Shown here piece after piece: positions 4,097-61,860 of a DNA stretch of 64,000 nt. The notes under the pieces were generated by a model. It did not search any database, was not told where the DNA came from, and worked only from the letters and a program-made list of their open reading frames with translations. Within the stretch, counting starts at the first letter, position 1. Every line of letters begins with the position of its first letter. The DNA lies in NCBI GenBank assembly GCA_949286015.1, contig CASEBB010000003.1, positions 1 to 64,000 of the forward strand, read 5' to 3'. Source of the stretch: an uncultured Succinivibrionaceae bacterium (GTDB taxonomy: Bacteria; Pseudomonadota; Gammaproteobacteria; Enterobacterales; Succinivibrionaceae). The position numbers and the translations under genes were made by a program.

Positions 4097-4157
4097 GCCA
4101 GCCCTTATAGTGGCTTAAAGCCACCAAGGGCTTAAAGCCACATAAACTCCCCCACAG

Positions 4158-4191
4158 CAAAGGAGCAGATGCGTCAGCATTTGCTCCTTTG
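4158..4191 (+). terminator. Intrinsic terminator of glgA
   Basis: CAAAGGAGCA pairs with TGCTCCTTTG, extended inwards by ATGC/GCAT around a GTCA loop, and is followed by TTGCGTTT. The long stem 61 nt after the glgA stop makes a terminator likely despite the imperfect T-tract. Confidence 0.65.
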
Positions 4192-4242
4192 TTGCGTTTA
4201 GGGCATCATAAGCGCTCTTTGGCATGATTGTGACCTTTATCT

Positions 4243-4469
4243 CCGACCGTGAGGAGGTCTGGGATAATTTTGGTCAAGCTGATAAACACACGGTTTATGG
4301 GCATGCATCAGACTATCTCGAGGTAACACTTGAGCACAAAGTAATGCACTTTACCTCAGTTTTGTGGCATAAGTCCCCTTGCTTTGGCCCATATTACCTT
4401 TAAGTAGGTGACCAAGAAACGCCTTATTTATGGGGTTTATAAAATTAGCTTAGACCTCCTCACGGTCGG
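4243..4469. mobile_element. 227-bp MITE-like element (family C) with 18-bp inverted ends
   Basis: The ends are a perfect 18-bp inverted repeat, CCGACCGTGAGGAGGTCT (4243-4260) against its complement at 4452-4469. The match resumes further in with TAATTTT. Directly outside both ends is TTATCT (4237-4242 and 4470-4475), the appearance of a 6-bp target duplication. No transposase fits inside 227 bp, so it would be non-autonomous. The right end lies 9 nt before the start codon of the next gene. The interior holds one copy of the TATCTCGAGGTA motif (around 4314). Only one copy is seen in the window. Confidence 0.75.
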
Positions 4470-4478
4470 TTATCTCTC

Positions 4479-4928
4479 ATGAAAATCGTGATTCCTACCG
4501 AGCGCAGTACGGCGCTCATTGACACCTTTTTACCAGTGTGGGAGCGCTCTGTGCGCGCCACCCACACCTTCTTAAGTGACGCCGAGATCGCCACCATTAA
4601 GACCTACGTACCTGAGGCCTTTAAGGGTGTACAGCATCTGGTGCTGGCCTATGATGATGATAACGATACCCCTCTGGGCTTTATGGGCATAAACGAGCAC
4701 AACCTCGAGATGCTCTTTTTAGATCCAGCCTATCGTGGTCAGGGCTTAGGCCGCACCTTACTGCAATACGGCATCGACAACTATGGTGTGGACACCTTAG
4801 CTGTAAACGAGCAAAACCCTAGTGCCCGTGGCTTCTACGAGCACATGGGCTTTGTGGTGTTTAAGCGCACGGAGCGCGATGAGCAGGGCGGCCCCTACCC
4901 ACTGCTCTATTTACGCCGCGAGGCCTAA
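4479..4928 (+). CDS. yjaB: GNAT-family N-acetyltransferase, YjaB-like
   Basis: A 149-residue GNAT acetyltransferase using acetyl-CoA; the substrate is not known. The acetyl-CoA loop appears as YRGQGLGRTLL (about residues 87-97) after the beta-strand LEMLFLDPA. The C-terminal VNEQNPSARGFYEHMGF and the ending PYPLLYL resemble E. coli YjaB as I remember it. No Shine-Dalgarno sequence is visible: the bases before the ATG are the end of an inserted mobile element plus TTATCTCTC, so translation may be poor, leaderless, or driven from within the element. The gene is monocistronic and shares a downstream bidirectional terminator with gltX. Family assignment is sure; the YjaB name is less so. Confidence 0.85.
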   Translation: MKIVIPTERSTALIDTFLPVWERSVRATHTFLSDAEIATIKTYVPEAFKGVQHLVLAYDDDNDTPLGFMGINEHNLEMLFLDPAYRGQGLGRTLLQYGIDNYGVDTLAVNEQNPSARGFYEHMGFVVFKRTERDEQGGPYPLLYLRREA

Positions 4929-7028: not shown

Positions 7029-8897
7029 TTACGGCTGCATTGGCGACGGCGTTTGCGGCTTTGTCTGCCAATGCACCCTGCCATGCTTCACTTGCTGTTG
7101 GGTCAGCACATTGAGCGGAGGAATGTAGCCCTCATGGTGCTCAATGCCTGCATCTGTTTGCGTCAAGGTGCGCCACGCACAGATCTGATGATCCTTGTCG
7201 CTAATGACCAAGATCACGCCAGTCTGCGGCAAGTCATTATCAGTGAGGTTGCTGCCATAGCCTCTTTCTAAGAGCTGGGTCTCGCCATCGGTAAGACGAG
7301 TGAACTTATGATGCTCAGTTTTTTGTTCGGCACCTAGACGCTTAAGCTCAATAGGATAGAGGTGATCAGGGGTGACAGCCACCAAATCACACCGCCCAAG
7401 GGTGTTCACGACTTCTTCTGAAACCTTAATGAAGTTAGCGCTCAGGAATCTTGCTATGAAGGCACGGTATAGCTCCTCATTGGCATAGTTCAGGATCTTA
7501 GAGTGAATCTTACACAGGATCTGGTTAAGCCTAATGCACATGCACTCGATGTCACCAGCAAGAAGGCTCTTTTGCGCATCAATGCCCTCAGATTTAAGCG
7601 CCTTGCTCTTATCGGCGTCAAAGTTCACCAAGTAGTCGGTCACCACTGGCTCAAATTTTTCTGCCACTTCTTGATTGGTAACACCGCAGTTAAATTCTCT
7701 ATTACTAGATTCAGGGTCACCAGCCAAAGACTTAATGGAGAAGTAGCCAGCCTGCACCAAGAGCTGCTTGAACTTAACGGTGCCGAAGAAAAAAGACTCA
7801 CAAAGCTCATCTTTAGTCAGCGTCAAATGCTGCCGACAAATCTGGCTGAGGTCTTTTTGCTCCATAGGATGGGTGCGCAAGAAAGAAGTTAACGCTACGC
7901 TAGCATTGGCGCTGTTCATCCAAAAGTTATCAAACACCAGCTGCTTGTTAGGCATCAATAATTGAGCAAAGAACCTGTTGATGGAGTACGGACAATACAC
8001 CTTGACCGAGGCATTCTCGTCAAAGCAAAAGCCATCATAATACTGTTCCAGTTGCTCCATTAGCTGCTCTTCGGTAATGTTAAGCTTCTTGGCAGCACAA
8101 GTGATGTGAGGCGCAAAGTTGGTGCGCACTTCATTGTGGGTATAGCCCAGCAAATCCGCCCAATAAGGCTCCATGCTTAAGTCTTGGACATCCTGCCCCG
8201 AAAACAATGATGTTTCACGGTAGCGCATAATACCCGTGATCAACATGAAGCGCACATTTGGCAATAACCGCAACCAAACGTAGAAATCTTTGAGTACCGT
8301 CTTGGCGACGTTATATTTGTCTTGATTGTTTAGGCTGCCAGACAGAGGATCATCCCACTCATCAATAATGAAGACCAGCTCGTGCTGTAGCGCAATCTGG
8401 TTAAATTTGCCTAAGAACCCAGAGAGGGTAACGTCCCTCTGAAAGCTCTCCACCTCAGGAAAACCAGCCTGACAAAAGGCATTGACTACTGCATCTTTAA
8501 GGGACGCCTCAAACTTGCTGATATTATTGCCGCCAATAGCTTTAAAGGAGAGGCTAATCACTGGGTAAACATTAGGTTCTGTCCACAGATCGTAAACGGC
8601 TGTGCCCTCAAACTTACCCTTGCCATGAGCAAACAGCTCATGCAGCATGGAGCACAAGGTGGTCTTACCCATACGCCGTGGGCGGCCAATGAAAACTGCA
8701 TTGTATTCCACAAGCTCTGCCAACTTAGCGGTTTTGTCGACAACCACATAGTCACGGGCTTTGTTCACAAACTTGTTCCACTCTGAAACACCCAACGGGA
8801 TTTTTTGCAGTGCAGAGTCATCCTTAGAGCTTTGCAGTGCAGGCCCCACTAACGTGCGCTCTTGCATTAGTTGCGCTATCGGCTTAAGTCTTAACAT
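7029..8897 (-). CDS. AAA-ATPase with C-terminal PD-(D/E)XK nuclease-like domain
   Basis: A 622-residue protein of the family usually annotated as AAA-ATPase-like plus PDDEXK_9 (formerly DUF1703), common as multiple paralogues in gut anaerobes and of unknown function. The Walker A loop is GRPRRMGKTT (residues 71-80) and Walker B is VFIIDEWDDPL. The C-terminus has GRCDLVAVTPDHLYPIELKR, the expected D...ExK nuclease core. The start is set at the ATG at 8897, which has GAGGTGAG about 5 nt upstream; a GTG 8 codons earlier lacks this. The gene stands alone. It could be a defence or DNA-processing protein, but nothing in the neighbourhood supports a specific role. Confidence 0.85.
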   Translation of the reverse strand: MLRLKPIAQLMQERTLVGPALQSSKDDSALQKIPLGVSEWNKFVNKARDYVVVDKTAKLAELVEYNAVFIGRPRRMGKTTLCSMLHELFAHGKGKFEGTAVYDLWTEPNVYPVISLSFKAIGGNNISKFEASLKDAVVNAFCQAGFPEVESFQRDVTLSGFLGKFNQIALQHELVFIIDEWDDPLSGSLNNQDKYNVAKTVLKDFYVWLRLLPNVRFMLITGIMRYRETSLFSGQDVQDLSMEPYWADLLGYTHNEVRTNFAPHITCAAKKLNITEEQLMEQLEQYYDGFCFDENASVKVYCPYSINRFFAQLLMPNKQLVFDNFWMNSANASVALTSFLRTHPMEQKDLSQICRQHLTLTKDELCESFFFGTVKFKQLLVQAGYFSIKSLAGDPESSNREFNCGVTNQEVAEKFEPVVTDYLVNFDADKSKALKSEGIDAQKSLLAGDIECMCIRLNQILCKIHSKILNYANEELYRAFIARFLSANFIKVSEEVVNTLGRCDLVAVTPDHLYPIELKRLGAEQKTEHHKFTRLTDGETQLLERGYGSNLTDNDLPQTGVILVISDKDHQICAWRTLTQTDAGIEHHEGYIPPLNVLTQQQVKHGRVHWQTKPQTPSPMQP

Positions 8898-13740: not shown

Positions 13741-14213
13741 ATCACCTCTCTGCTTTTAGGCTACGTCCCTGAGCGTACCGCATCTCTTCTCGTCTTTTCC
13801 TCTTCTTTCCCCTTTCCTCTTGTTCTCTTCACTTCTGCTCTGCCCTTATTGTCGCCACATCATTGCTGTGTCTGCTCAGCGCGCCACGTTGGTCGGTTAC
13901 AAATGCCAGTAAAGTGTGTTGCAGGCGCTCGCCCTCAGATGGCCCCGCAGAAGGTTCTACCCCAAGAGGATCAGGGCACGCAAAGACAACAGCTTCCTTA
14001 AGTGCCTATCCCTCAAAGACTGGCCTATAGCCACGCAGTGCTTCAGTTGGCCGCCTGTAGTCCTGACCTTGAGTATCCCAAAAAGCAAATCTCAAAGGAG
14101 GTAACTGCCTACAATCAGGTGTTTTACCCTGAGAGTAGGCGTTGCTGAGGCGCTACTCTCGAGATAAGATGCTGTCTGGCGCTTTTAGGTTACCTACTCC
14201 TGACCGCTACAGC
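13741..14213. other. Gap after tRNA-Gly
   Basis: No supported gene. Pyrimidine-rich DNA follows the tRNA, then copy 1 of the 130-bp family A element. Confidence 0.5.
14069..14197 (+). mobile_element. MITE-like family A element, copy 1, with 8-bp target duplication
   Basis: 129 bp, from TTGAGTATCCC to AGGTTACCTAC. It is flanked on both sides by TCCTGACC (14061-14068 and 14198-14205), a perfect 8-bp duplication. The ends form an imperfect inverted repeat (GTGAGTATCC-type against GTAGGTAACC). An internal hairpin GAGAGTAG/CTACTCTC is intact. The 3' hairpin is damaged in this copy (ATGCTGTCTGGCGC). Confidence 0.9.
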
Positions 14214-18979: not shown

Positions 18980-19767
18980 TGCAAACCTCCACAAAAAGGA
19001 CGCCTAATGATACCGCATCGCGGCAGTGATGTGGCTTTAAGAGCGGTCAGTAAGGGGCGCCCAGCGTGGCAATTGTGAGGTTGTTGAGGGTGGTGAGGGA
19101 GTTGTGTGAGTGGAGGTAGTCTCGTGACATGAGAGCGGGACGCTGCTATGGCAAGCGCTCCCCACAGGCGGTAGCTCACCTGCGCCTCATAGGGATCACC
19201 GCGCTTCACAGCACCATTAGCCTCAGCACCGCGTGATAGCACTTTACGGGTGCTTGGGGCTGCACTTTCTACCAAAAGTGCCACCCCCTCTTTTAGGCTT
19301 ATGCGGCAGTAGCGTCAGCAGTAGCGTCAGAACAGGCGTTTCTCCCAGTTTAGCCACACCTGCTATTAAGGTGTAGACGAGGGTACAGACACCGTCTCTA
19401 TGAGGGTTAGCACTTAAGGCAATAACTCCGCAGAAGACACTCTGGCCATAAGTTGCCGCCTGCCCCGCCACTGAAGAGACAGGCGCCTCTTTGCTGACGC
19501 CATTGCCTGTAACCAGTGGAGCAACAGGAGCAGCCCCGCTTCCTCTGTGAGCACCCGCTCTCCCCACCGTTGCTCCAAGTGGGCACCGCAAAAGCGCTTG
19601 GCAGCGCCTGCTCTTGATAGTAACGCCGCCAACACTACTCTCAGGGTAAAACACCTGCTTGCAGGCAATTACCTCCGTTGTGATTTGCTTTTTTGGGATA
19701 CTCGCGCTCACGGCTCTGGCGTCCGCGCTTACCCCGAGAGGTACTGCACCCCGCCTGCTTCTTAGCG
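18980..19767. other. Long gap between glmS and sdhE
   Basis: About 790 bp. No supported gene: the open frames run through repeat DNA. It contains a decayed copy of the family A element at 19579-19705. Confidence 0.5.
19579..19705 (-). mobile_element. MITE-like family A element, decayed copy
   Basis: Read on the minus strand it runs from GCGAGTATCCC to GGTGCCCAC, 127 bp. It retains recognisable blocks of the family (AAAGCAAATC, GGAGGTAA, CAGGTGTTTTACCCTGAG, AGCGCTTTT). Both internal hairpins and the flanking duplication are lost; the flanks share only GCTC. It seems an older insertion than the other four. Confidence 0.7.
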
Positions 19768-24708: not shown

Positions 24709-25157
24709 AGCAGACTCCTGTGTAGTTTGCCATGATGCTGGTGGGAAAAGGAATGTGAGGCGCGGCAGCGCAGTGCTGTTGCCGCTGGTGGTAGGTATGA
24801 CGTGAGTATCCCCAAAAAGCAAATCTCAAAGGAGCTAACTGCCTACATTCAGGTGTTTTACCTGATAAGAGGCGTTTGCTGAGGCGCTACTCTCGAGATA
24901 AGGCGCCGTCAGGCGCTTTTAGGTTACCTACGTATGACTGAGGACGCCAGAGGACAGCTGCCCCGCTAAAGGGTAGCTGCCGCCTTTACTAGTGGGAGAT
25001 TCGCGCCGCAATTTTAGCTAAAAGGCCACTCTCTCTTGTGATAAAAGTGCTTGTGTCTGGGGTTCTACTGTCCCCAGTAAACTAGGAGCGCTATCTGAGC
25101 CGCGCCGCGCTTGTGGCGATGAGGTGCGGTTCTACCGCACTGCGATGCACTTGTGGG
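24709..25157. other. Gap between ptsP and the unknown gene
   Basis: No gene. It is largely occupied by family A element copy 2. A GTGCGG/CCGCAC hairpin without T-tract lies near 25125-25140, downstream of ptsP. Confidence 0.5.
24802..24931 (+). mobile_element. MITE-like family A element, copy 2, with 7-bp target duplication
   Basis: 130 bp, from GTGAGTATCCCC to GGTTACCTAC, flanked by GTATGAC on both sides (24795-24801 and 24932-24938). The 3' hairpin GCGCC-GTCA-GGCGC followed by TTTT is intact. The larger internal hairpin is partly broken (GATAAGAG against CTACTCTC). Confidence 0.9.
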
Positions 25158-28262: not shown

Positions 28263-29736
28263 AACCCTCCCTATAGCCATGCTAAAGCAAGTAGCATTGG
28301 CCAAAAGCATGTGGTGGCTTTTATCATAGCGCAATACGTCGGCAGCAAAAGGGGTAATTGCTGCTGACATTGCTGCCATAAGCCAAGGCGGTAATCTTAC
28401 GCAAGGATACACAGCTGCAACTTAGCGGCGGTGAGAGGCGGAGTTTTTTCTCATTGGCTCTGGCTGTCTCTTACGAGGGGTGCTACAGGCTGCACTGAGG
28501 ATAAAAAGCTGCAGGTGAAAGCATGACTTTATCATGGTGCCCTTGACCCTTGGGGTAAGGCATCGCAACGCTGCAATGGTGCTCGCGCCTCAGCACATCA
28601 CCATGCCCTTACTCTACTTTTCCCTGCCTCACAGCCACCATGAGCATACCCTAAAGGGCATCACCGCAACCACGATACGCAGAAGCTGTCATCTGCCATT
28701 CACGCCCCCTCAGTGTAACGGTTCTAATGGCGGTATTAGCGGGAGTGAGTGATGGCTATCCTTTGCCCCTTTGGAGTAAGGCGTCGCAGACGCCGTAATG
28801 GTGCTGTGCCACAGAACCTACCCTGCACTTATTCGTGATTATCCCCAAAAGCAAATCTCAAAGGAGGTAACTGCCTACAATCAGGTGTTTTACCCTGAGA
28901 ATAGGCCTTTGCTGAGGCGCTCCTCTCGAGATAAGGCGCCGTCAGGCGCTTTTAGGTTACCTTCCTTAATCTCTTTTCCCAGCATCACAGCCACCATGTG
29001 CCTACCCTAAAGCCATACCAGCAACCACGGTACGCAGAAGCGGTAGCACAACACTACCCACCCTGCAACACCTTTCTTTACAGCCCCTCCACGCCCTCTC
29101 CTTCACCCCTTACACTCACCACAAAAAGCGGCCACAGCCGCCTGCATAGCCCGCACCGCTTTACCCTGCCGCAGCTCACACTTTACGCAGCTCATGTCAG
29201 CCACTTCTATCACCATTTCCCCTCCCCCAACCCTTCCCGTATCAAAGCCTAACTGGCTCCAGCGTCACTGCCATAAGTCTATACGCATCGCCCAAGCGTT
29301 TGCTGCTTTTCATACCCATTTGCAAGCTTTCCCTTATTTAAGCCGCGCAGACGCTAATCTCGTCTAAAAAGGCAGCACGTTATCGGTCATATTGCGCGCA
29401 ACGCGAGCTATTGACGTAAAAGGGCTTATATATCAGCTTGAGAAGAGATAGTCATACCTCAAAACGCCACCTGACGTCACTTTTACGGGGGTTTTTGCCC
29501 AAAGTCAGGGTGTAGTGTGTTGACAAGACCAAAAAGTCTTGAGCGCAGGTCAGTCTGCGTTGCTTCCTCCTTACACGCCCGTCTGCCTACTGGCTGTGGT
29601 TACAGGGTTACACAGTCCGATGGGCTGTAAGGCAAGGCAACGCTGCTGACTTTGCGATCTGTGCTTTTTAGTTGGTGCTTACGCCCGCGCCGGTTGTAAG
29701 CCCAGTCACCATCTTCCTTGATAACAGGAGCTTTCT
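28263..29736. other. Long gap upstream of rppH and of the 515-residue gene
   Basis: About 1.47 kb between divergent genes. No supported gene. It holds family A copy 3, and a roughly 40-bp motif present twice, near 28547 and 28770, ending GTAATGGTGCT or CAATGGTGCT after GTAAGGC(A/G)TCGCA. AT-rich DNA near 29400-29440 may hold a promoter. Confidence 0.5.
28835..28964 (+). mobile_element. MITE-like family A element, copy 3
   Basis: 130 bp, from GTGATTATCCCC to GGTTACCTTC. The flanks are CTTATTC and CTTAATC (28828-28834 and 28965-28971), a 7-bp duplication with one mismatch. The 3' hairpin GCGCC-GTCA-GGCGC plus TTTT is intact; the larger hairpin is broken (GAGAATAG against CTCCTCTC). Confidence 0.85.
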
Positions 29737-35277: not shown

Positions 35278-35290
35278 GCAGCCATTCAGT

Positions 35291-35367
<77 letters not shown>

Positions 35368-35374
35368 AGCACTA

Positions 35375-35397: not shown

Positions 35398-35460
35398 TCC
35401 TTGGGCTCTGGATGCTGTGGCTGGCATCGCAGACGCTGACTGAATAATGCAGCCGTCAGT

Positions 35461-35537
<77 letters not shown>

Positions 35538-35547
35538 ATACTAAGAG

Positions 35548-44622: not shown

Positions 44623-45255
44623 AAGATCTAATTCCTCATGCTGTTACACCCATCAGCCGCAAGGCGGTGATGGCACCTGAGCTTTATCAGCGCAGCTTCA
44701 TGCTGCGTTGCAGCCATTATCTTAACGCATTTTGTGCAAGGCACAAACAACGCACTGAGTTAGTTCTGCGCGTTAAGGCTATGACCTGAGCTTAAGCTCT
44801 TGAAACTTTGGGGATTATAGCACAGCTCTTTTGCCCGCCTTTTGAGGTCTATCACAAAGCCAGCGGCATTGGGACAGCTTTAGCGGTGCTTAGCGCGCAC
44901 GTGCAGGCGGCGGGCATGGCGGCATAGGTAATACGGTGCTCTAAGCGGGAGCTCTGCAAGAAAGGCAGTTCTTAGCCGCGCTACACCTCAAAGATACGCC
45001 CTGACCAGCATGCGCTCACTTCAGAGGTGTCACCAGCAGCAGCGGCTGCGACTGCGGTTGCTGCAGCTGCTCTCAGGAGTACTGCTCTCCGCAGTAATGT
45101 CCATAGCCCACCTGTGGAGCTATCAACCCCCGCCATCCTAACGCTCTCAATGATACGGCGCTTAGCGCTGTCACATCCCTTGTTTTGGCAGCCCTGAGCA
45201 CTACCTGCAATCAGAGATAGTCACTGCCAAGAGAGCACGATCCCAGAGGTGTTCC

Positions 45256-45385
45256 GTAGGTAACCTAAAAGCGCCTAACGGCGCCTTATCTCGAGATTAG
45301 AGCCTCAGCAAACGCCTAATCTCAGGGCAAAACCCTTGATTGTAGGCAGTTACCTACTTTGAGATGTGCCTTTTGGGATAATCAC
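45256..45385 (-). mobile_element. MITE-like family A element, copy 4, with perfect 8-bp target duplication
   Basis: 130 bp in inverse orientation. It is flanked by GGTGTTCC on both sides (45248-45255 and 45386-45393). On the minus strand it runs from GTGATTATCCC to GGTTACCTAC. Its larger hairpin is GAGATTAG/CTAATCTC, while copy 1 has GAGAGTAG/CTACTCTC: both arms changed and pairing was kept. The 3' hairpin GCGCC/GGCGC plus TTTT is intact. Confidence 0.92.
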
Positions 45386-45408
45386 GGTGTTCCTTACTCC
45401 TGCCCAAA

Positions 45409-52778: not shown

Positions 52779-53844
52779 ACTACTCCCATGATGATGAGAT
52801 CATGCATCACACAAAAACTACAATCTCTAATATTATAACCGTAATCCCTTACAAAAGGCACAAAGCGCGCTAAAAGCGCCTGTCTCTCCCCCTCTGTTAC
52901 GTCTTACCGCTACCTGTCTGTAAGCGCGTACCCCTGCCCCGCTTTTGTTCTGAAAAGCCCGTAAATAAGCCGCAAAACTCCACTATCTTGCACTGTGCTT
53001 TCTCTACTCGTGCCACTTAAAACACCTCAAGGAGCAGGCAGTCCTAGGTTGAAACAAAGCGTGCCTTTATTTACGCCATTGTTGCCGATTTTATCTTTCA
53101 CGCCTCTTACAGCGCCCGCCCCTGTAAGCACTTACATACAAGTGTGGCGATGTCTCTTGCGCCGCAAAAACAGCCCCTTTGCTGACAAACTCCGCTCCAT
53201 TTGTGGCAGCGCACAATGCACGGCTATGAGCGTCCCCTTTGCCCTCACTTTCTGCTTTTGCGTCTGCCTTTGTGCCTATGCACACTTGTATGACAAGTTA
53301 GCACTAATGTGGTGCTCAAATCCTCTCTCTGGTGCACAGTTCTTTGCTCAGCTTACGCCGCAACTTAGCACTCGTTTCTGTATAACAGCGCCCGCCCCTG
53401 CCTGCTACTACCCATAGGGGTATGGGCGCCTTACCGCGTCTTATCTCGAGGTACGACCAAGGGCGTCACCATCTACTCAGATTGGTGGTGGTGGTGGTGG
53501 TGGTGGTTGCTACTCCCTACCAAACACCGCGCTCTGTGTCTGGCACTACCACTATGAGTGCTTCTGCTACTACCCTCAGTAGTACAAGGCACGTTACCGT
53601 GTCTTATCTCGAGGTACAGCCGCGTGCGTCAACAACTAATCGTAGTGGTGGTGGTGGTGATGGTGATGGCTCTTTTGATTGCTGACAGGCTATCCCCTAC
53701 CAGCAAACGCACTCAGTGTTTGGCACTGCCACTACCAGCACTACTGCTACTCGCCTCAAGGGTACAAGGCGCGTTACCACGCCTTATCTCGAGGTAAGAC
53801 CAATGGCGTCACCATATATTCAGATTGGTAGCTGCCCGTGCCCA
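52779..53844. other. Unusually long ftsA-ftsZ gap
   Basis: These genes are normally adjacent. No gene is seen. It holds two copies of ACAGCGCCCGCCCC (53109 and 53385), three tandem hairpin/TTATCTCGAG units, and a (GGT)8 run at 53484-53507. Confidence 0.6.
53425..53796 (+). repeat. Three tandem 163-180-bp units, each with a hairpin and TTATCTCGAGGTA
   Basis: TTATCTCGAGGTA begins at 53441, 53604 and 53784. Each is preceded by a hairpin with a CTTACC or GTTACC loop: GGCGC/GCGTC, AAGGCAC/GTGTCTT and AAGGCG/CGCCTT-type stems. Arms differ between units but stay pairable. Between anchors, words such as TGTTTGGCACT(G/A)CCACTA and a GGT-rich stretch also repeat. Confidence 0.8.
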
Positions 53845-55182
53845 CTAAAACTCTTTAGCCAGCCACGCCTTAATCCACGACAGCGTCTTTGCTACCGTGC
53901 CACTCTGGCTCTTATAGGCATCCACCGCCTCACGACGACGCAGCCTATCCTGCTCCATCGAATAAGCCACTCGTAAAAGGCCAATTGACGTCGCCCACTC
54001 AGGTGAGTCCAGCTTCGCCGCCTCTTCCTCATCCCCCTCGTAGGTCACACCACGTGGCTTGCCAATGTTGACTACCGTCTTGACCTTGTCATCCTTCAGC
54101 GTCGCTTGAATTAAGAGGTCGATACCAACCGTCTTAGCCACGCCACCAGTGATCACAAAGCCCGCACCTAAGGCGAGGCTCTGCCCCGTCTCCTTGTAGT
54201 AGCCCTGCACGCGATTGAGCACCACACGCGTAATGTCCATGAGCTCAAAGCCAATATTCGTGGCCAGCTCCTTGACGCTAATCAAGCATGGGTCAGAATA
54301 ACCCTTTGGAGTCACGCTATAAAACTCAGGGCCATCCTCAAGCAAGCAAGGGTGGGCTAAGCCACAAGTGCGCTTGGCAAACTCTGCCACACGTAAAGGC
54401 AAGTTGAGCTTGGTGGCCACATGCTGGGTAATGGAGTTACCGCTTAGCTTTAAGCCAAAGGTCATGACCAGCTTGCCCTTGTCATAGACCGCAACACTGG
54501 TCGAACCGCCACCGATGTCCACTAAGCACACGCCAATCTCTTTTTGCTCTTGGGAGAGCACGGCATCAGCAGCGGCAATACCGTTGTAAATCACTTCGTC
54601 GATGCTGATATTAGAAGACAGGCGCTCAAAGGCAGCACGCAGGTCGTTCTCCTGATCCTCATTGCAGGTAATGAGGTGAGCATTGACCTTAATGTACGAC
54701 GAGCTCATACCAATAGGATTGGTGACCTCGTTGTCCCTTTTTGTAAAGTAGGCCTGTGGCACCACATGAATTAAGTGCTGCGACTCCGAGAACTTATACA
54801 TGGCCGCATGATCGATGGCTGTATTGCGATCGATCTCGGTAATCTTGCCTGTAGGGACATTGGCCTCACCTGAGTAGTTAATCGACTCAATGTGAATGCC
54901 AGACATGCCAATCACGCATTGTGAAAAGGTCTGCTCCGTCTCGGCCTCATAGGACTCAATGAGGCTGGAGAGCTTGTTACTGAGCTTATCGATATCGCTA
55001 ACGGAGCTGTTGAGCACACCATCCGATGGGCACTCATCAAAGTAAGTGACATTGACCTCGCCGTTGTCATTGACCTCACCAACGATCAGGCGAATCTTGT
55101 TGCTGCCAATGTCCATAGCCACCAGTGGCTCTTGGGCATTAGCATGTTTAGCTCTAGCTTTAGCTCCCTTGTTAAACCACAT
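53845..55182 (-). CDS. ftsA: Cell division protein FtsA
   Basis: Actin-like ATPase that ties FtsZ to the membrane. 445 residues (420 in E. coli). Motifs: phosphate 1 in VAMDIGSNKIRLIVGEV, the 1C domain with CVIGMSGIHI, phosphate 2 in CLVDIGGGSTSVAVY, and the adenosine region FVITGGVAKTVG. The last residues KTLSWIKAWLAKEF form the amphipathic membrane-targeting helix. It follows ftsQ by about 100 bp on the same strand. Confidence 0.97.
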   Translation of the reverse strand: MWFNKGAKARAKHANAQEPLVAMDIGSNKIRLIVGEVNDNGEVNVTYFDECPSDGVLNSSVSDIDKLSNKLSSLIESYEAETEQTFSQCVIGMSGIHIESINYSGEANVPTGKITEIDRNTAIDHAAMYKFSESQHLIHVVPQAYFTKRDNEVTNPIGMSSSYIKVNAHLITCNEDQENDLRAAFERLSSNISIDEVIYNGIAAADAVLSQEQKEIGVCLVDIGGGSTSVAVYDKGKLVMTFGLKLSGNSITQHVATKLNLPLRVAEFAKRTCGLAHPCLLEDGPEFYSVTPKGYSDPCLISVKELATNIGFELMDITRVVLNRVQGYYKETGQSLALGAGFVITGGVAKTVGIDLLIQATLKDDKVKTVVNIGKPRGVTYEGDEEEAAKLDSPEWATSIGLLRVAYSMEQDRLRRREAVDAYKSQSGTVAKTLSWIKAWLAKEF

Positions 55183-61232: not shown

Positions 61233-61860
61233 GCGCGGATCCTCAATCTTGGTGGTGACAGAGCTATCTGCTGCGAGCATACGCGTTGGCCTGTATGAGG
61301 TCTGAAAAAGTGGTGGTTGGGGGCGCGGTTTTGAGCGGCTGCGACTAATGCGGCTAATGAGGAGCGCAAAGACTCACCTTGGGGTAAGGCGCGCTAGCGC
61401 CGCGCTTACCCTGAGGTTTAGCAGGCTTTCCCACTGGCCACAGGCCAATGGCCACTCCAAGAGGCGCCATTACTGTCCCTGCGGCGTAAAGAGCCTGTGG
61501 CGTAGTCACATTGAGGTAATAGCGCCCTCACCTTAGAGTCAGCAACCTACTCCAAGAGGAACCACTCCTAATGCTCCCTCTTGCAATAAAGAGCCTCTGG
61601 CGCTTCTCTGGCGGCGGCTCACAGGTAAGGGCGGCTGCCGCCGCTTACCCTGAGGCTTAGCAGGATTTTCCGCTGGCCACAGGCCGATGCCACTCCAAAG
61701 AGGTGCCATTACTGCCACCTGCGGCGTAAAGAGCCTGTGGCGTAGCCATCTTGAGGTAACAGCGTTTACTTCTGAGAATCAGCAGCCTACTCCCAAGAGG
61801 AACCACTCCTAATGCTCTCTCTTAAAGTAAGGCCCGCAGGCGTCGCGCCCCTAACATAGC
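61233..61860. other. Gap between murD and ftsW
   Basis: No gene in about 630 bp. Most of it is the 239-bp tandem duplication listed separately. Confidence 0.55.
61378..61855 (+). repeat. 239-bp tandem duplication with palindromic heads
   Basis: Two direct copies, anchored on CTTACCCTGAGG at 61405 and 61644. Each begins with a GTAAG..CTTAC palindrome (GGTAAGGGCGGC against GCCGCCGCTTACC in copy 2) and continues through GGCCACAGGCC, GCGGCGTAAAGAGCCTGTGG, TTGAGGTAA, CAACCTACT or CAGCCTACT, and AAGAGGAACCACTCCTAATG. The copies are close but not identical. Confidence 0.85.

Follow-up and report, generated by a model that had tools for sequence, protein, structure and literature searches.

A 227-bp MITE, probably mobilised by an IS1634-type transposase, lies nine bases before an acetyltransferase gene in an Anaerobiospirillum-group genome

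The locus between glgA and the acetyltransferase gene

The window analysed here is a stretch of 64,000 nucleotides from an uncultured Succinivibrionaceae bacterium (contig CASEBB010000003.1), whose genome is regarded as a MAG of the Anaerobiospirillum group, with the genus assigned by kinship. The region that follows glgA contains these features:

4155 to 4194, forward strand: hairpin 3' of glgA, with 18-nt arms that are 89% complementary, placed like a terminator (glgA of the relative G009 is also followed by a comparable hairpin)
4237 to 4242, no strand: left target-site duplication, TTATCT, the same 6-mer as at the other edge of the element
4243 to 4469, forward strand: non-autonomous MITE of 227 bp, with copies that share its borders (91% mean column identity among 21 copies)
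4243 to 4271, forward strand: left terminal inverted repeat, 29 nt, equivalent to the right end of the putative partner (IS1634-like, see below)
4441 to 4469, reverse strand: right terminal inverted repeat, whose terminal 33 nt are 97% identical to an end on G000:C213 that is interpreted as the left end of the putative partner
4470 to 4475, no strand: right target-site duplication, TTATCT, the same 6-mer as at the left edge
4479 to 4928, forward strand: YjaB-like GNAT acetyltransferase gene, 149 aa, with an intact frame and no Shine-Dalgarno sequence

The element at 4243-4469 is a MITE: a DNA transposon that is short, carries no gene and has inverted ends of about 29 bp. At its ends (CCGACCGTGAGGAGGTCT / AGACCTCCTCACGGTCGG), the outermost 18 bp form a perfect inverted repeat (18/18), the match over 29 nt is 90%, and the ATG at 4479 follows the element after 9 nt (TTATCTCTC). 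The first-pass annotation had described a 227-bp segment with perfect 18-bp ends, TTATCT flanks and 9 nt to the ATG, and re-measurement gives the same values. Allowing up to three mismatches, the terminal 18-mer occurs in the window just at the two ends of this element, against a chance expectation of 0.04. There is no open reading frame of 80 aa or more inside the element, which is, like other MITEs, short (below 600 bp) and non-coding.

The best solved structure for the acetyltransferase is YjaB (2kcw, E 7e-23). The protein has GNAT Pfam domains above cut-off and scores 124.5 bits against NCBIfam PRK10514, just below the curated cut-off of 134. G009 has the same gene order, glgA, acetyltransferase, gltX, and its leader is similar in length to the site rejoined here by removal of the element. 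In G003, the acetyltransferase between glgA and gltX (L182 / L202) survives as an internally deleted remnant, and the matches in G005 (L181, elsewhere in its genome, with a stop) and G007 have broken frames. The gene thus decays in several lineages, and the remnant and the frame breaks suggest that the genus can do without it. An upstream ATG at 4224 was rejected as the ancestral start because it is one base out of frame after rejoining. The hairpin at 4155-4194 is, we infer, the terminator of glgA and, since a hairpin follows glgA both here and in G009, read-through from glgA is probably limited.

A multicopy family in two Anaerobiospirillum species

The host genome that was searched, a fragmented draft of 4.47 Mb in 241 contigs, contains tens of copies of the element, and the full ones align exactly from inverted repeat to inverted repeat with up to 97-98% identity. 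The family is multicopy and its members have common borders, as is characteristic of MITEs. With up to three mismatches, the terminal 18-mer has 67 matches in this genome (38 + 29), against two (1 + 1) for a reversed control pattern. Among 58 relatives, full copies were found in just one congener (G002), and in a scan of the collection the contigs bearing copies belong to Candidatus Anaerobiospirillum pullicola; the family is known here from two Anaerobiospirillum species only. Single matches of the 18-mer in unrelated, mostly actinobacterial genomes outside Anaerobiospirillum were put down to chance, as was an apparent end pair (L086) outside the genus that lacks a target duplication. Two isolated 18-mers in viral contigs, neither with a partner end, were also discarded. 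The plasmid and phage collections searched gave no match. The family is new and apparently undescribed, and it is of a well-known kind.

Many host contigs stop 96-99 nt inside a copy. Short variants of the element (126-162 bp) have similar breakpoints near this contig-end position, and their lengths may therefore be products of assembly. That the window copy is such an artefact is argued against by its modal length, which is found in two assemblies, and by its intact duplication.

Evidence of insertion

A total of 36 end-to-end pairs were gathered, of which four are not simple copies (L086, a chance pair; L098 and L125, the same nested locus; and L006, which is compound). Direct repeats of 5-6 bp occur at the edges of 24 of the approximately 32 complete copies (six bases in 20 and five bases in four), and about a quarter of the complete copies lack a target duplication. 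When left and right flanks of different copies were combined as a control, 5-6 bp duplications were found in 5 of 1,260 combinations. Insertion is shown directly by a sister copy (L012) that sits at TAAAAC inside another, otherwise unbroken repeat: when its flanks are rejoined, they form a continuous alignment with five copies of that repeat that lie uninterrupted in the window. In addition, the element adjoining glgA is absent in all eight congeners in which the locus was found. The family thus has both the target duplications and the empty sites that are expected of a MITE. The exact borders of a multicopy family, the 6-bp duplications, the natural empty sites and the eight empty congeners support the claim of the first-pass annotation that 4243-4469 inserted as a mobile element and duplicated TTATCT.

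The interrupted repeat is a second dispersed family of about 130 nt, represented in the window by five copies, which lie on both strands (14066-14197, 19635-19696, 24804-24932, 28834-28962 and 45255-45388). The MITE is inserted at TAAAAC in other copies of this repeat, namely at L012 and, at the same site, at L161. The window also contains two identical 83-nt tRNA-like units with a CAT anticodon context, 170 nt apart (35286-35368 and 35456-35538), and imperfect tandem repeats of about 180 and 240 nt (53402-53849 and 61403-61793).

A putative transposase partner of the IS1634 type

The sole transposase found to end in the same terminus belongs to the IS1634 family and is encoded, in a 5'-truncated form, on contig G000:C89. 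It scores 105 bits against NCBIfam NF033559 (cut-off 100) and 25.8 against DDE_Tnp_1 (cut-off 23). The contig reads ...AAATTATCCTAGACCTCCTCACGGTCGG / ...CGAAATTATCCTAGACCTCCTCACGGTCGG on the 3' side, after the transposase, and the last 28 nt of this terminus are, but for one mismatch, the mirror image of the left end of the MITE. The first 33 nt of the C213 end, in turn, match the right end of the element (97%). Both remnants are incomplete, and no intact autonomous partner was found in the genomes searched: C89 starts in the middle of the transposase at the contig edge, where the amino-terminal part is missing and another repeat abuts, and the C213 end is broken after about 30-31 nt, where another repeat begins, so that it was rejected as the start of an intact parent. 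Because no similarity was seen between the interior of the element and the partner, the link between them rests on about 28-33 terminal nucleotides and on the length of the duplications.

Ends that begin with C and duplications of 5-6 bp are features of the IS1634 family (PMC2266710), and ISPfe2, a captured member, made a 6-bp duplication (PMC3281130). The duplications of the MITE family fall in this range, and the family is thus best read as an IS1634-mobilised MITE. With respect to the IS1634 end consensus (C-----YT), C1 and T8 match in the MITE ends and position 7 is G, not Y. Related ends (CAGACGTCGGGGAG, CAGTCTTTGGGGAG) and duplications of 5 and 6 bp occur in two IS1634-like elements of the genus that are full-length. 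The two parental ends seem to come from an IS1634-type element, and the MITE was probably moved by the C89 transposase or an intact copy of it; an intact partner would have ends of the form CCGACCGTGAGGAGGTCTAGG...

The transposase remnant on C89 (L134 1600-2330) has a long carboxy-terminal tail in which units of about 35-40 aa are repeated (GDIATPHDAGGA.CTASD.ATAVEPD...), which is unusual for a transposase. The repeat at the start of C89 (the first ~98 nt; L134 1-98) was set aside as a different dispersed repeat, outside the MITE family, that abuts the remnant. This repeat has the end GCATGCACACCGACAATTTGC..., also lies at the ends of contigs C208, C46, C91, C16 and C206, and breaks many contigs.

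The missing Shine-Dalgarno sequence

The empty site was rebuilt by removing the element and one TTATCT, and the 22 nt before the ATG were paired with the anti-Shine-Dalgarno sequence. The rejoined site (...GATTGTGACCTTTATCTCTC-ATG) gives a duplex energy of +0.6 kcal/mol, that is, no pairing, as against -5.8, -6.0 and -5.6 for the acetyltransferase leaders of G009, G001 and G003, and a median of -5.45 for 20 long frames in the window. With the element present there is a weak pairing (-4.0), which lies inside the terminal-repeat stem. The gene does lack a Shine-Dalgarno sequence of its own in the accessible leader, as the first-pass annotation had stated. That the insertion pushed this sequence upstream is not supported: the three relatives have a Shine-Dalgarno sequence, whereas the rejoined site has none. 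The motif is thus missing irrespective of the insertion, and, assuming that the leader has not changed since, the gene would have lost its Shine-Dalgarno sequence, or never had one, independently of the MITE.

Course of the insertion and alternative explanations

In the course of events that we propose, an IS1634-family DDE transposase would have acted in trans, recognising the shared ends and duplicating 5-6 bp of target. The MITE landed in a leader of about 51 nt between the glgA hairpin and the acetyltransferase gene, duplicating TTATCT, and in a read-through transcript the acetyltransferase ATG would now be preceded, at a distance of 9 nt, by a very stable hairpin. Taken as a whole, this account of an IS1634-mobilised MITE inserted before the gene is very probably correct.

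If the sequence were a conserved operator or cis-regulatory RNA controlling the acetyltransferase gene, and not a mobile element, this would explain its position in the gene leader and the very stable hairpin predicted for the 227-bp element (-90.5 kcal/mol, with a folding z of -7.9 when the ends are included). The strong fold, however, is due to the ends, since the interior without them is unremarkable and folds little better than shuffles (z -1.4), and the element matches no Rfam family at gathering score. A locus-specific regulator is refuted by the occurrence of this sequence at dozens of unrelated places, by the target duplications and by the empty locus in all congeners read, and we give it almost no credence. 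It is also highly improbable that the same MITE was moved by an IS630-family transposase, as might be proposed from the pullicola locus L098, where 18-bp ends enclose a piece of an IS630-type DDE_3 gene (7258-7989; 732 bp). This piece has internal ends of its own (GTACAGG...), is flanked on each side by a TA dinucleotide inside two 17-bp ends that stand back to back, is single-copy with no close relative in the host genome, and the locus is without a 6-bp duplication. The duplications of the MITE family are 5-6 bp in length and not TA, and L098 was therefore rejected as the parent; it fits a collapsed MITE copy into which an IS630-type element, with its TA target, has inserted. Such nesting implies that the MITE copy at L098 7258-7989 had shrunk to little beyond its two ends.

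For the gene, the first-pass annotation had offered two outcomes: that the element silenced it, or that it now supplies the leader. The second of these, in which the MITE took over as leader and supplies promoter or ribosome-binding function, we regard as unlikely. The acetyltransferase frame is intact, the rejoined site without a Shine-Dalgarno sequence implies that another route of initiation exists, the right end of the MITE beside the gene provides the weak duplex described above, and other MITEs, Correia among them, are known to contain promoters (PMC10969869). Yet this duplex is enclosed in the terminal-repeat stem, no forward sigma-70-like promoter was detected on the gene's strand between 4080 and 4560 (the element and its flanks), and placement close before a sizeable frame is rare among 30 copies (L001 at 9 nt; L004 at 3 nt, with a doubtful frame). 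That the hairpin is a working translational leader, as its Shine-Dalgarno-like (GAGGAGGU) and anti-Shine-Dalgarno-like (ACCUCCUC) end strands might suggest, seems very unlikely.

For the inserted MITE, then, we lean, purely by inference, towards a neutral to mildly repressive effect on the acetyltransferase gene. In Microcystis, a full IS1634 element inserted between genes lowers downstream expression (PMC11448079); this repression, together with the MITE promoters known elsewhere, makes both outcomes possible for the gene. The two cases are alike in being IS1634-type insertions between genes, but in Microcystis a complete IS of 1.7 kb was inserted and transcripts were measured, whereas the present element is a MITE. 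With IS-derived MITEs (Correia, MITEAba12, QMITE and others) the element shares its short, non-coding and multicopy nature, terminal inverted repeats, target duplications, intergenic bias and a hairpin-forming transcript; it differs in that its sequence is unrelated in the plasmid, phage and Rfam searches and in the lack of a detected promoter. Similarly, the 5-6 bp duplications, the ends starting with C and a partner transposase above the NCBIfam cut-off relate it to the IS1634 (formerly IS1549) family, from which it differs in having no transposase gene, in its size (227 bp as compared to 1.5-2 kb) and in end position 7, which is off consensus.

The MITE family is abundant and breaks short-read assemblies in a gut genus that has been little studied. 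Since the two end strands pair, any RNA with the MITE would carry a hairpin that might capture or hide a ribosome-binding sequence near a start codon. This locus, where the hairpin stands nine bases ahead of a gene that lacks a Shine-Dalgarno sequence, is a clean natural test of how such a structure affects the gene. Otherwise, the insertion of the MITE here is ordinary genome biology.
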